DNA from: Anas platyrhynchos
Taxonomy: Eukaryota > Chordata > Aves > Anseriformes > Anatidae
Assembly (NCBI RefSeq): GCF_047663525.1
Contig: NC_092592.1
Span: 19,728,001 to 19,792,000, forward strand
DNA: 64,000 nucleotides
Direction of reading: 5' to 3'
Positions 20,705 to 45,139 of the stretch are shown in pieces; position 1 is the first letter of the stretch; every line of letters starts with the position of its first letter. The translations under genes and the position numbers were made by a program. Under the pieces are notes generated by a model. The model was not told where the DNA came from and did not search any database. It saw nothing but the letters and a program-made list of their open reading frames with translations.

Positions 20705-20845
20705 CTAGCTCAGTAGCTGCCGAATCTCCTTGTGCATGTGACACAGGAAGTCCACATATGAAGCTCCCCCAGTCAGGCTCTTATCCTCCACCAAAAAGTG
20801 TTTGAAGAGCATTTCCAGCTTATCTTCTTGCTTCACAATTATTAA
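20705..20845 (-). CDS. SEC24C: SEC24C coding exon 22 and stop
   Basis: 46 codons plus TAG (20705-20707). [20 protein letters not shown] through [11 protein letters not shown], nearly identical to the human C-terminus. The acceptor is TGTTTGCAG. Confidence 0.97.
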
Positions 20846-32800: not shown

Positions 32801-35800
32801 GTTACTGCAAAAAAGAAAGCTGAGATTCTCATAGCAATCAAAATATTAAATGTTTTGAACACAACATTCTTCTGCCTTACAGATCTCTACCACACACTTG
32901 TGAAAGAACCAACATTTACCTAGGCTTTGTTACTTAAACATGCCTACTGTTGAAAGTTAAACAAGGTTATCTGCAAAATAGCAACATCTAATAGCATTCT
33001 CCTGATGAGATCAGATTGCATACAGTGCGAGTGTGACTTCACAAACAGTTCTCACCTCATCTGGGGGTAGGGTAGCCAGCGGTTTTATGACAGCAGCTAG
33101 AGGAACTTGGGACTGTTTGGCCATATCTGATGTGCAGGGAATATTGTACGATGTACATCTTATATACCGGGGGCTTGCGTTCCCTGGAGAACAAAGGAAA
33201 AAATGCCGACAAGTTTCAGTAAAGTTTATATTAAGAACAGAATCTTTCTTTCTTTTCTTGTTCTTCTTTATATGAAGAACAAGATAGCTTCAGTTCTGCT
33301 GCTGAGTCACAGAATAAGAATGTATTTAAAAAAAAAAAGACATAGAACTTAATTCCCAACCAAAAGCCTCTTTACAACTATGCATAATAAAAGCCTTTAA
33401 CTCAAAACAAGTGAATTTGACTCCATATCAACTTAACATCTAAAGTATTCCCACTCCACTCTTTTTGCAGACTAAATCATACTATGGGCAAAGATCTCAA
33501 CTCAGACATTTCTAATGTCTGATTTTGTAAGTCTGGCTGAAGAGCGAAGCACTTGATTACAGAATTGGATTCTGAAGTTTTAAGGGAGCTTAAGATCTCC
33601 AAATAAAGTCATGGGAAATAAAAAGATTAAATTCTTTCTCTAAAATCCATGAACCAAATAGCGTCCCATACTTAAAAAAAAAATACACTGTTTCCAGTCC
33701 AACTCAAACACTACTACTAGTAAATTTCAGTTCTGACCTGAATGATTAAAGACAATTCCACCACTTTTTTAGGCTTGTGTTCATTGCTTGAATTCATTGT
33801 TAAAAATATTTTACCTTGATCCTTGACCAAGAAATTGGTAGTAACGAGCGGTGGGACCTGTCCTCTTACTCCAGTGACAAATGGTTCTGATCCACGGTTA
33901 CTTCTGTCATCTTCAATCACTTGAATCTACGATCGAAGAAAACATCACATTGAAATCAAACCTCCAAAGATTAAAGTACCACAAAATAACACACTTGCAT
34001 CTGTAAGACAGTGGAAAGGGAACCTGAGGCAAACATCACTAGCTCTAAAAATAAGAGGTCTAAGGCAAGCAGGTTTTGTCAAGCAGTCACCTCTCAGTTG
34101 GATTTCAATTATTACTGAATGACTAACAATAAAATATAAATGGTATTTTCCCCAAGTACTGAGTAGTAGCATACTTTGTGTTTTAGGGACTAATCTGAAC
34201 TCATAACAAGCAAACTTAAGTCAAGAAAGGATTTTTTTGCTAGTGTTTCTGTTTACTAGTCCTAGCCAAATTAAAATCAGAAGCTTTTTTAAGCCTCAGG
34301 GTGAAGTTCTATACATGACCTGGATTTTCCTTTCTGTTGTGCTCCCAATGCTTTTTCATAGCATGTGTTTATTTTCATCCACTGCAGCTCTCACCTAAAG
34401 ACACGCTTGCCAGCTCAACTGTAAATCTTTACTGCACTGTAGTGCTCAAGAATTTATGATTTGAATTCTGGGGATGCGGAAAGTGAAGTTTCACTAGAGC
34501 TGAAAATTATTCAAGCTTAAACTTCACAAAAGCAGAAAACAGCCAAAAAATGGTAAATTTCTTACAATTTCAATTTCTTCATTAATGCAAATGTACTTAA
34601 GAAAACAGAAACACATCAGTTTTACTTGACTAAAATATCCATAAGAACAGAAGATTATTCTTACACATTTTTAACTACCTTTACCATTCCAGTGCTTGAA
34701 TCTAAGCATGAAAGCCAGCAGCTGTCTTGCCACCAAACACACATACCTTTGCTTAGAGTCAAATTGCAAAATGCAGAATTTTGCACAGCAAAACTTCTAC
34801 CCTCTCACTCTGGCTTCCAAGGAGCCAGCAAAAACACCACCCCCATAGCATCAGACTGACTTCTAGGATAAATCTAGTTCCATCTCAAAAGCCTACAGAC
34901 TGATTGACATTTCTGACTTCACTGCTTGTAGCTGTTGTATGACCAAATTTGGTTAAACAAGGAAGAATTGATACAAGGGTCATTGCTTTTTTTTTTTTCT
35001 TCCAATGCAAAAGGTAGCTGCTTTTTCTTTAGGTAGAGTTCTCTAGACATAACCATTCTATTTTCAAAATCAAAATGTAATGGTTATTTATGAGCACAGA
35101 TAATGAAAGAATGTTTACGGCTCCCCGGACCTCGTATTAGTCAACTAAGATTTACAGGAGTTAACATCCAAACAAAAATAGTTTCTCCTCAGTTTTAGAG
35201 TTTCAAAGCACTAGCCCAGTATCGGTATCAACACGAACTGTAATCAAGTTCTGCTTAGAACTGGTAGAAGACACGGCTACAAAGGCTCATGCTGTGTGTA
35301 TGTTAACATGGCATGTGCTGTACGGACAATTATACTGATGGCTTACACTGAAAATGCCAGTTGGAATCTGACGGAGGTATTTTAAGGATCAGAAAAGTAA
35401 AGGGGAGACATTCTTCATGATCTGTTTCTGCAATGGTCTGCTTTCTATTGCCTCACCAGTCATTGCAGAAGAGAAGATTTTAAACAACCTCTTGTGGTGT
35501 TACGCTACTCATTTTGGTAAGGCAAACAGAAGACAGCAAGGAAAGGATAAAGGATTAATGATGGAGGGTTAGTAAGGTGAAAGTCAGATATCAGGCATGC
35601 ACAGATGGTCACCAACACACAGACTACAATTGACATAGATACAGCACTTACTGGACTAGGAATTGCATCAGGGTCTATTCTGTGCCTGGGTTTCTGCTGG
35701 GGTGGCAGCTCATTAAGTTGCTTTATTTATTTATTTTTTAAATAAAGAGTGCCACAAAAAAAAAAAAAGAAAAGAAAGAGAAGAGAAGAGAATAATAAAA

Positions 35801-38800
35801 CAAAGAGTAACAGCGTTACTTCTCTCTACCCAAACTTGTAGCACTGGAATTAGGTATTTGGACATTGGTTCATGCAACAAGAAACACCAGCTTCTGCAGC
35901 ATTCACTGAACCTAAAAATGAGTCTTCAGGTTGTATTGGGCCTGGGCACCGAACACATTGCTAACAGACGTAGTGGCTCACGTGCTCACTTTGGTTAGAA
36001 ATTGCGGATTTATGTTTTAAGAACATGCTGAAATGAAGGTAACTGATACAAGCCATTTGAGATTTCATTTAGTGGGAGAGAAGAGAAGCAGACAAGCAAT
36101 TACAAGTTCATATATTCCACATAAAAAAATTTGCAGCCCCAAGCCTTGCATAAATCTGAAGTCTAAACAGCTCACCATTTCTGAATAGCAACAATTTTTG
36201 AACAGCAACAGTCAAGATCTCAGCTATAACTCACAACTACATTATTTTTTTATAGTTTTTAAGTAAACTGATTGTAAGCACTGTCCTGGAAATGCTTCCT
36301 GTTATCAAATGATTGTAGCCTTCTGAGACAACGGAACAGCATCAGGAGCAGTGGAAGGAAGAGAACAGCAGACTAGGGGCAACAATGCTCCCAGGCTTAG
36401 TATTACTCATCATTGTCAGCCATCACACATCATTGCTCCTCTTTTCGCAGAGACTCCATTCCAAAAGATAGTTCTAATTTGAGAAGTTGCCCATATTTGA
36501 CTGAAGCAGTGTCCTGACTTAATGACACAAAGAAAGCTAACCAGCTCTTTACAGAAAAAGGAAAGGAAAAGTACTACAACCATCTCCTATGAACCTTACT
36601 TTAAACCTGGAATATGCAGTTGATAGCTTGCCACCCCAAAACCAGCAATTAGTTCACCTTGGAAAGTAGTTAAGCAGGAATTCAGAAATGGTCAAGCAAG
36701 TATAATCAAAGCCCTGCAGGATTTCTAAAATGTAAACCATAACATGGTACAGAAGACCAGCCGAGAAATTAGAGCAGTGACTTGCATATGCAATGCCTTT
36801 CTTTAGTCTTCTGGGCTTATTCATAACAAATGACTGAAGCTTGGATATACTGGAGAAAAGCAAACAGAAAAATATGCTGCTGTTCTTTGGAAGAAGAAAC
36901 CTGCTTTCAGCTCTGGATTTTGTCAGTTCTGTTTAACATAAAGACACTATGGGAGAGTTCACACTTAAGAACAAAGTAGGCTTACAGGGCTAGGAATGGA
37001 ATCTGGATCCAAGCGTTTTGGTGGCGGTGGTGGTCCAGGCTGACTTCCGTAATTTGGTGTTCCTGGATAAGCTCCTCCATAGTTTGGTTGGGGGCCCCTC
37101 ACCTGTCCAAAGGAACCTTACAAGAAAGAGACAATGGAATCAAACATTAGCTAACATTAGGCAATTCCTCATCAAACACCTCCCATTTTTCCTGTCATCA
37201 TAAAAATAACAAAAAACAAGAAGCTACGACAGGAAACTACATGCTTTTCAGTCAATTAGGTTTAAATGCATTTGTCAATGTTTCAACTCAGTCTGACACA
37301 GTCTTCCTTAAAACCAGACGTAAAGAAACCTGTGTTTTAAGACTAACGTAACTAGTTTTAGAATATATTATTAAAACATGCATTAAGATCATGTACTATG
37401 AATATTCAGGTTGAGCTGCAGAACTACCTAATAGAAAGTGCACACAGAACAGCCAAATAGCCAGCAGATGACCCATAATGCCTCAAACTCAAGTTATGCA
37501 AGGATTTCTCTCAGGCAGTTTTGTACTGCCTAAAAGCACAGTAATAAGTTAGCACATGACAACTTCTTTTGTTTTGTAACTCATGGAAGTAATTTCACAC
37601 CACTTTACACAATTCCAGTCAATTACGGAATAACGTCGTGATTCACCCCACAAGTGTTTTTACAGTTCATAGCAATTTGGACAAATGTTTAAACAAGTAA
37701 TTTACCTGGCCACTTGTGCAAGGCTGCACGTGGGGGGCAGGATTTTCAATCCTGACAGTTGCACGTGATTACTTTATCCTAGCTATCTGCAGATGTTATT
37801 GATTAAAAATCAGCCAAAACTGTTTTATAATCCAGAAAGTTCAAATGATATTACTTCTAAGCACACAGGAATTGTAAAGGGTTTTACAAGGAGAAAAATA
37901 CAGCTTTGTGAATTAAAGAAGAAAAAGTTGCAACTCCTTTTCAATGTATAACACTCCTCTCATACACAGTGTATATTCACACCCAGTGTGTATATTGTTA
38001 AAAACTATAATAATGATTTTCAGGATTTCAAATCTCTACTTTTGAAAGGACAAGGTTGCAGACATCAAATTTAAGTTTGTAGTACAAAAAATTGTGGTCC
38101 AATTGTAGTCTTATGGCACTAAGCATTGAACAATTTTTTAGCCAAGTGAACTAGTGTTCTTTTAATTTCATTAACCTGAATAAAACCTGCATGACAAACA
38201 GCTTAGAATGATAAATCCTACTCTTTGTCTTAGATTTGTCCTTCGCACCAAGGAAACGAGGGAAGCCCTGAAGTGTAGCCAGAAGCCTGCAAGTTACAAA
38301 CCTGAAAGCTGTTTCTCAGTTTGCAGCACACGGAGAACACACCTAACTTACAATTCCTACCCTAGAAATACTCACCGTTCTGCTGCATTTGGTAACCTGG
38401 CTGAGGAGGATGAGTGGGAGGAGGTGGTCCATGGAGGCCACTCATGGGAGGCCCCGGGTGGGGCCCTGACAGAGTTGATGGAGGTGGTGGTGGTGAGGAT
38501 ACATGATTAGGCTGTGATGTTGGTGGTCCAGCAGCTGTCTGCCCAGGCAGCGGCGGGCCTGGCATGGTAGGTGGCCTTGGGGCACCTGTGGTAGGAGGAT
38601 AAGAGGAAGGTCCAATCCCTGTAGAAGATGGAGGTGGAGCAAAACCAGGGACTTGAGTAGGCAGGCGCTGAGTTGATACTGGTTGACCAGAAAAGGGAGG
38701 CTGTGCCAAAGGAAGACCCTGAGACACACTGGGAGGAGGGGGTCCTTGGCTCGCAGTGTAAGGTGTGTAGAGACCAGATCCTGTTGCACTAAAGCTCCCT

Positions 38801-44800: not shown

Positions 44801-45139
44801 CAATAACTTGAGCATATACAGAAAGAACACGATTTTTAACATCACGCAAGCTACATACAGAAGATAATTGCTACCATAAAAGCTAACAATAGGAATTATA
44901 AAGAAAAAATTCCACACGTAACAATTCACAGGTTATCAATCATTAAGTTTTGACTGAGAAGTACCTTGTGGAGGGACTGGCTGTTGGTATCCTGGCACCG
45001 GACCATTATAAGCTCCATATTGCGCGTGAGGAACCCCTGGCAATGGCTGTCCTCCGTAGGCAGGCTGCTGGTATCCCTGATATCCAGGCTGAGGTTGCCC
45101 ATAAGGAGGCCCTGTGTGAGTCTGCTGGTTTACACTCAT
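20705..45139 (-). CDS. SEC24C: SEC24C, COPII coat cargo adaptor, 22 coding exons
   Basis: Joining 22 minus-strand exons (each listed separately) gives 3357 nt, 1118 residues plus stop (human 1094), with consistent phases and GT-AG sites throughout. Seen, in order: a Pro/Gly/Gln-rich disordered N-terminus (about 1-350); the conserved IQVIEDD and [17 protein letters not shown] blocks; a zinc finger with CxxC pairs C449/C452 and C471/C474; a vWA-like trunk domain starting near residue 519 ([12 protein letters not shown]); then beta-sandwich, helical ([19 protein letters not shown]) and gelsolin-like ([17 protein letters not shown]) regions; and the C-terminus [11 protein letters not shown]. Known: SEC24 pairs with SEC23 on SAR1 at ER exit sites and selects cargo; the C/D class differs from A/B in signal preference. 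The start at 45139 (MSVNQQ) matches human MNVNQS. It shares a CpG island with divergent SYNPO2L. Two extra in-frame candidate exons are listed separately. Confidence 0.98.
21281..21370 (-). CDS. SEC24C: SEC24C coding exon 21
   Basis: 90 nt. [20 protein letters not shown], then [10 protein letters not shown]. The donor is GTAAAA. Confidence 0.96.
21798..21989 (-). CDS. SEC24C: SEC24C coding exon 20 (gelsolin-like domain)
   Basis: 192 nt, phase 0. [20 protein letters not shown], then [20 protein letters not shown]. Its first third ([14 protein letters not shown]) is diverged from human, as expected for a linker. Confidence 0.96.
22613..22792 (-). CDS. SEC24C: SEC24C coding exon 19
   Basis: 180 nt, phase 0. 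[20 protein letters not shown] through [13 protein letters not shown]. The donor is GTGAGT. Confidence 0.97.
23022..23140 (-). CDS. SEC24C: SEC24C coding exon 18
   Basis: 119 nt. [20 protein letters not shown] through [10 protein letters not shown] (helical domain). The acceptor is TCTGTGCAG. Confidence 0.97.
23754..23783 (-). repeat. Perfect 15-bp tandem duplication spanning the coding exon 17 donor
   Basis: The 15-base unit ttaccatatttagcc (plus strand) occurs twice without mismatch at 23754-23768 and 23769-23783. Each copy has an ATATG|GTAA splice donor in SEC24C sense. Confidence 0.95.
23773..23911 (-). CDS. SEC24C: SEC24C coding exon 17 (duplicated donor)
   Basis: 139 nt. [20 protein letters not shown] through TLINYLAK. 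The donor GTAAGG at 23772-23771 lies inside a perfect 15-bp tandem duplication. A second donor, 15 nt further, would add five codons (GKAKY) in frame. Confidence 0.96.
24382..24527 (-). CDS. SEC24C: SEC24C coding exon 16
   Basis: 146 nt. [20 protein letters not shown] through SGALLQ (beta-sandwich region). The donor is GTGAGG. Confidence 0.97.
24812..24908 (-). CDS. SEC24C: SEC24C coding exon 15
   Basis: 97 nt. [20 protein letters not shown], then [12 protein letters not shown]. The donor is GTGGGT. Confidence 0.97.
25238..25408 (-). CDS. SEC24C: SEC24C coding exon 14
   Basis: 171 nt. Contains [20 protein letters not shown] and [12 protein letters not shown]. The donor is GTAAGA. Confidence 0.97.
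25884..26000 (-). CDS. SEC24C: SEC24C coding exon 13
   Basis: 117 nt, phase 0. [20 protein letters not shown], then [19 protein letters not shown]. The donor is GTAATA. Confidence 0.97.
27130..27223 (-). CDS. SEC24C: SEC24C coding exon 12 (weak tandem donor)
   Basis: 94 nt. [20 protein letters not shown] through GLEALK. The phase-correct donor is GTTGGT at 27129. A better-looking GTAAAT lies 4 nt downstream but would shift the frame. Confidence 0.93.
28143..28334 (-). CDS. SEC24C: SEC24C coding exon 11
   Basis: 192 nt. [20 protein letters not shown] through [13 protein letters not shown]. The donor is GTAACA. Confidence 0.97.
28600..28724 (-). CDS. SEC24C: SEC24C coding exon 10 (trunk start)
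   Basis: 125 nt. [20 protein letters not shown], then [20 protein letters not shown]: first strand and helix of the vWA-like trunk. Confidence 0.97.
29046..29161 (-). CDS. SEC24C: SEC24C coding exon 9
   Basis: 116 nt. [20 protein letters not shown], then [18 protein letters not shown]. The donor is GTACAG. Confidence 0.97.
30273..30411 (-). CDS. SEC24C: SEC24C coding exon 8 (zinc finger)
   Basis: 139 nt. Contains [16 protein letters not shown] and [10 protein letters not shown], the two CxxC knuckles of the SEC24 zinc finger. The acceptor is TTTCCACAG and the donor is GTAAGG. Confidence 0.97.
30412..33055 (-). other. SEC24C intron between coding exons 7 and 8
   Basis: 2.6 kb intron. I see no extra exon or recognisable repeat. 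The other SEC24C introns, apart from those holding the two candidate exons, are likewise featureless to inspection. Confidence 0.7.
33056..33183 (-). CDS. SEC24C: SEC24C coding exon 7
   Basis: 128 nt. [20 protein letters not shown], then [22 protein letters not shown]. The donor is GTGAGA. Confidence 0.97.
33815..33926 (-). CDS. SEC24C: SEC24C coding exon 6
   Basis: 112 nt. [19 protein letters not shown], then [18 protein letters not shown]: almost identical to human. The donor is GTAAAA. Confidence 0.97.
35652..35720 (-). CDS. SEC24C: SEC24C candidate extra exon repeating the DPDxIPSP end of coding exon 5
   Basis: 69 nt with a strong donor (GTAAGT) at 35651-35650. A long polypyrimidine tract lies upstream (complement of 35756-35792), with the first AG after it at 35722-35721. 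It translates in phase 0 to QLNE then [19 protein letters not shown], echoing the preceding exon's [11 protein letters not shown]. Both ends are phase 0, so it can be inserted between coding exons 5 and 6 in frame. Joined directly to coding exon 4 it would hit a stop, so it cannot simply replace exon 5. It is either a functional cassette or the relic of an exon duplication. Confidence 0.5.
35756..35792 (+). repeat. Polypurine tract (A-run followed by AAAAG/AGAGA units)
   Basis: All purine over 37 bases. In SEC24C sense it is the pyrimidine tract upstream of the 69-nt candidate exon. Confidence 0.8.
36986..37116 (-). CDS. SEC24C: SEC24C coding exon 5
   Basis: 131 nt. Encodes [18 protein letters not shown] and ends [11 protein letters not shown] in phase 0 at donor GTAAGC. 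It matches human [11 protein letters not shown]. Confidence 0.96.
38376..38828 (-). CDS. SEC24C: SEC24C coding exon 4 (Pro-rich)
   Basis: At 453 nt this is the largest coding exon. It is very Pro/Ser/Gly-rich and includes [13 protein letters not shown] and the terminal QPGYQMQQN, matching human [11 protein letters not shown] and QPGYQPQQN. The donor is GTGAGT. Confidence 0.96.
39165..39343 (-). CDS. SEC24C: SEC24C coding exon 3
   Basis: 179 nt. Encodes [18 protein letters not shown] through [11 protein letters not shown]. The acceptor follows a CT-rich tract and the donor is GTAAGG. Confidence 0.95.
40041..40161 (-). CDS. SEC24C: SEC24C coding exon 2
   Basis: 121 nt. Contains [20 protein letters not shown], aligned with human [19 protein letters not shown]. 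The donor is GTATGC. Confidence 0.94.
42736..42819 (-). CDS. SEC24C: SEC24C candidate cassette exon between coding exons 1 and 2
   Basis: 84 nt with acceptor GTCTTTCCAG above 42819 and donor GTAAAT below 42736. It enters and leaves in phase 1, so skipping or including it keeps frame. It encodes 28 codons without a stop ([20 protein letters not shown] and on to NFI), of Ser/Pro/Phe-rich character. It has no counterpart in the human canonical sequence as I remember it. Inference: an alternatively included exon in the disordered N-terminus. Confidence 0.6.
   Translation of the reverse strand, partial: VIFLPWGSLRRALLFLSTLTLLLHLIS
43092..43113. repeat. 22-bp perfect palindrome in a SEC24C intron
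   Basis: The arm cagataactgt is followed directly by its reverse complement. A second short palindrome, actgtacagt, repeats the core at 43124-43133. It lies about 270 nt upstream, in transcript sense, of the 84-nt cassette candidate. Confidence 0.85.
44142..44161 (+). repeat. (AAAAT)4 microsatellite
   Basis: Four perfect AAAAT units in a SEC24C intron. Confidence 0.9.
44965..45139 (-). CDS. SEC24C: SEC24C coding exon 1 (N-terminus)
   Basis: Residues 1-58, starting [20 protein letters not shown]. The exon itself extends to about 45167 (acceptor TTTTTGCAG) with 28 nt of 5' UTR. The donor is GTACTT at 44964-44963. It ends in phase 1. Confidence 0.94.

Follow-up and report, generated by a model that had tools for sequence, protein, structure and literature searches.

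The SEC24C locus and the candidate exon

The window, that is the whole 64,000-nt stretch of DNA analyzed here (C6:19728001-19792000 of a 1.26-Gb assembly in 42 contigs, judged to be bird-like), carries SEC24C on its minus strand. The gene was traced as 22 colinear pieces matching the human SEC24C protein, with residue 1 at position 45139 and residue 1094 at position 20708. Intron 5 separates coding exon 5 (36986..37116, minus strand) from coding exon 6 (33815..33926, minus strand), the latter starting with IQVIEDD, and contains a 69-nt segment at 35652..35720 (minus strand) which is the subject of this work. The analysis covered this one genome at the level of sequence. The segment has no stop codon, is in phase 0 at both ends and is followed by a GTAAGT donor, so that its coordinates, frame, donor and freedom from stops had all been given correctly in the original prediction. 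The 19-residue peptide assigned to it there was in error, since 69 nt give 23 residues; the letters QLNE had been dropped, and a length of 19 fits entry at the AG ending at 35709. Entered at its first AG, the candidate cassette exon would add 23 residues in frame.

The end of exon 4, exon 5, the candidate segment and exon 6 form one open frame. The expectation that inclusion would put two DPDxIPSP motifs in tandem is supported by the sequence.

Splice sites and flanking motifs

The donor had been described as strong. It does rank within the top 1.8 % of the 3882 GTs on the minus strand of the window, but it is middling within SEC24C itself, where 10 of the 21 donors exceed its score of 3.61 (the donor and acceptor ends were picked by a script near tblastn ends, so some of them may be wrong). 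The long pyrimidine tract and the AG-free zone upstream are also present. The AG-to-AG gap preceding the acceptor is 98 nt long, a length reached by only 9 of the 4574 gaps on the minus strand of the window, and it holds a 30-nt all-pyrimidine run with TCTT/TTCTCT repeats (35756..35785, minus strand). The tract, however, ends 35 nt before the exon, and for this reason the first acceptor, the AG ending at 35721, is locally poor: it reads AAAG and the preceding 17 nt are only 24 % pyrimidine.

Four possible acceptor AGs, ending at 35721, 35709, 35697 and 35694 and including a CAGCAG pair, fall within 28 nt (35694..35722, minus strand) and would give exons of 69, 57, 45 and 42 nt, all of them in frame. 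The two last AGs look locally better than the one at 35721, with C at position −3 and pyrimidine contents of 59 % and 53 % in place of 24 %. A real exon may therefore be entered at one of these (the AG ending at 35697 or 35694, CCACCCCAGCAG) and encode 15 or 14 residues, or several acceptors may be in use, as every choice keeps the frame. We consider such a downstream entry rather unlikely, since the zone free of AG, in which the pyrimidine tract lies, terminates at the first AG and since two splice forms of mouse Sec24c are on record, one of them with an insertion of 23 amino acids, exactly the number encoded by 69 nt (PMC8548507, citing Adams et al. 2014, J Biol Chem).

The flanks of the candidate exon contain several short motifs, of the types associated with RBFOX, PTB, Nova, QKI and MBNL. 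TGCATG, an RBFOX-type motif, occurs at +51 from the donor (35596..35601, minus strand) and again with its start 156 nt upstream of the exon (35871..35876, minus strand). It is thus present in both 200-nt flanks of the candidate, as compared with 2 of the 44 flanks of the 22 SEC24C coding pieces. In the 300-nt upstream flank TCTT was found 8 times versus 3.5 expected from the intron mean. YCAY was counted 7 times in the 300-nt downstream flank and twice upstream, with 3.5 expected, and ACTAAY once in the downstream flank, with 0.3 expected. The MBNL-type motif YGCY was not enriched in the 300-nt flanks (4 and 4 versus 3.9 expected). These comparisons were made post hoc and are counts of motifs, not evidence of binding; they fit a regulated cassette exon.

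Similarity to the end of exon 5

In its last 11 codons the candidate agrees at 8 of 11 residues with the terminus of coding exon 5, from which it was presumably duplicated, and the resemblance is limited to these codons. Both elements have the same orientation and both end before phase-0 GTAAG donors. This agreement in residues, phase and orientation argues for the tandem exon duplication that had been proposed. Tandem exon duplications used as cassettes likewise show adjoining homologous exon ends and donors in the same phase; the present case differs in that only the last 11 codons are alike and the copy would add to exon 5, being unable to replace it.

Over the 33 nt compared, the candidate and exon 5 differ at 12 sites (4, 0 and 8 at the first, second and third codon positions, respectively), with only 3 amino-acid changes. 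The differences are concentrated at third positions, 8 of 11 versus 4 of 22 at the first and second positions taken together (Fisher p = 0.0055), although part of this bias would arise because exon 5 is itself constrained. Over the same 33 nt SEC24D shows 12 differences to exon 5 and 10 to the candidate. As the candidate is as diverged from exon 5 as SEC24D is, the duplication looks old.

The selective regime was approached by simulation of neutral change. When all 12 changes were placed in the candidate copy, 442 of 400000 trials left the frame free of stops and preserved 8 or more of the 11 residues (P ~0.001); with fewer changes in this copy the probability rose to 0.14 for 7 of 12 and 0.29 for 6 of 12. 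With a sample as short as 33 nt, the neutral test can settle the matter only when almost every one of the 12 differences arose in the candidate copy, and the data from this single genome suggest constraint on the segment, short of proof. The original prediction had offered a relic of tandem exon duplication as one explanation, of which the duplication is well supported and the relic is unlikely. A duplicated exon in decay, having lost its splicing, would agree with the locally weak first acceptor, and with half of the differences in the candidate copy the observed similarity could survive unselected, with the probability of 0.29 given above. Against such decay stand the third-position bias, the open frame and the intact donor, all kept after a divergence like that of SEC24C and SEC24D, as well as the 23-residue splice form reported for mouse (PMC8548507), and we regard it as very unlikely.

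The similarity was also compared with chance. The 11 stop-free codons before every GT in the window were scored with BLOSUM62 against the end of exon 5, which gave 3817 ends (2102 from the minus strand, 1715 from the plus strand). The highest score, 59, was that of exon 5 itself; the candidate ranked second with 48 and the next best end reached 24. Among 2000 introns simulated with a first-order Markov model the best score was 26, and none reached 48. The segment is short, which leaves some room for coincidence, but given the control introns and the next best score in the window a fortuitous likeness within the intron has a negligible probability. No other genome location matching the candidate exon was found in a DNA search that skips common words, and the two other genome matches of a 201-nt query were both confined to its first 51 bases, that is to the pyrimidine tract. 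The human SEC24C protein also matches the segment (E 8e-4); this match adds little, because proline-rich stretches elsewhere in the window score equally or higher when the low-complexity filter is off.

Homologous tandem exons are often mutually exclusive, but here exon 4 ends in another phase and its joining to the candidate segment creates a stop from all four of the in-frame AGs tested, so that a productive protein can carry the segment only as an insertion, a choice between it and exon 5 is refuted for productive protein and, as a reading of the locus, next to impossible, and the earlier statement that the segment cannot replace exon 5 is borne out.

Comparison with SEC24D and with known splice forms

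Two SEC24D copies were found in the assembly, at C4:4.15 Mb and C4:47.7 Mb. In each of them the corresponding exon ends with one motif and then GTAAGT. A search of the next intron in both copies did not find a second motif, the best tblastn match (E 0.16, 16.2 bits) being at chance level. As far as this genome goes, the second motif has therefore been seen in SEC24C alone.

According to PMC8548507, sequence paralogous to the 23-residue insertion of mouse Sec24c is absent from SEC24D as well. The mouse form and the candidate share the gene, the length (69 nt, or 23 codons) and the lack of a SEC24D counterpart; the species differ, and the comparison is one of these three properties. Their agreement is strong ground for inferring that the candidate corresponds to the mouse insertion. 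The suggestion of an undescribed isoform is in consequence probably wrong, to judge from the splice form stated in that paper. The cited passages do not mention that the exon could derive from the end of exon 5, and this proposed origin may be one that has not been noted before.

Further reports concern SEC24C splicing more generally. In the relevant passage of PMC3737533 a mouse Sec24c exon is placed among Nova-target candidates with a strong CLIP cluster overlap, and Nova-dependent splicing is described as not apparent for it. That exon belongs to the same gene and is likewise a candidate alternative exon, and the candidate described here has a YCAY-rich downstream flank; as the passage leaves the exon unnamed, the likeness is at the level of the gene. 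Sec24c also appears in a gene-ontology table of a mouse Qki5 splicing study (PMC6429586). Two other events, a 116-nt frameshifting event at SEC24C exon 11 (PMC9691287) and a SEC24C splice event on hnRNPM knockdown whose exon is unnamed (PMC11265163), are not shown in the passages concerned to involve the candidate exon.

A literature text search with four peptide strings found no papers. Pattern scans of the viral-contig and genome-contig collections gave 0 matches to vertebrate sequence from other species, and of the 183 stretches (genome contigs) and 20 stretches (viral contigs) picked by protein patterns none was confirmed by tblastn.

Proposed origin and function of the exon

We propose, with a probability of approximately 0.87, that the segment is a real cassette exon of SEC24C, that the 3' end of exon 5 gave rise to it long ago by tandem duplication, and that it most likely corresponds to the mouse 23-residue insertion. 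The copy would have been retained since then as an exon for optional use. Skipping of this exon would give the standard SEC24C protein, and its inclusion in the mRNA would add 23 residues in frame, placing two tandem DPDxIPSP segments in the part of the N-terminal tail that adjoins the folded core. The weak local acceptor, the distant pyrimidine tract and the TGCATG motifs on both sides may make inclusion of the exon regulated by tissue.

The sequence of PDB entry 3eh2 (Sec24C) begins with PIQVIEDD, its first residue being the last one before the insertion point, at the end of exon 5. The insert would accordingly sit just outside the crystallised part and give a second DPDxIPSP segment to the tail, a region which is probably disordered.

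A wider proposal, which we hold tentatively and at somewhat less than even odds, is that the duplicated DPDxIPSP linker is an ancient innovation of SEC24C only, kept since about the SEC24C/SEC24D split, and that its switching by factors of the RBFOX, PTB and Nova type tunes a COPII function specific to SEC24C. That a bird-like genome carries a segment of equal length, 69 nt, which resembles the end of exon 5 and which the search of SEC24D did not turn up, points to an insertion of long standing that has been kept. In mouse embryos SEC24D largely substitutes for SEC24C, and the 23-residue splice form is put forward in PMC8548507 as a possible cause of the residual perinatal lethality. The interval 35652..35720 is the exact segment to delete or to force into the transcript.

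As a separate observation, the second SEC24D copy includes the introns (C4:47.714-47.765 Mb versus C4:4.134-4.185 Mb). The two copies are 81-94 % identical in aligned DNA for 45 of the 46 pieces of at least 150 nt, and the second copy is an apparent large segmental duplication of SEC24D in this genome, or else a feature of the assembly.
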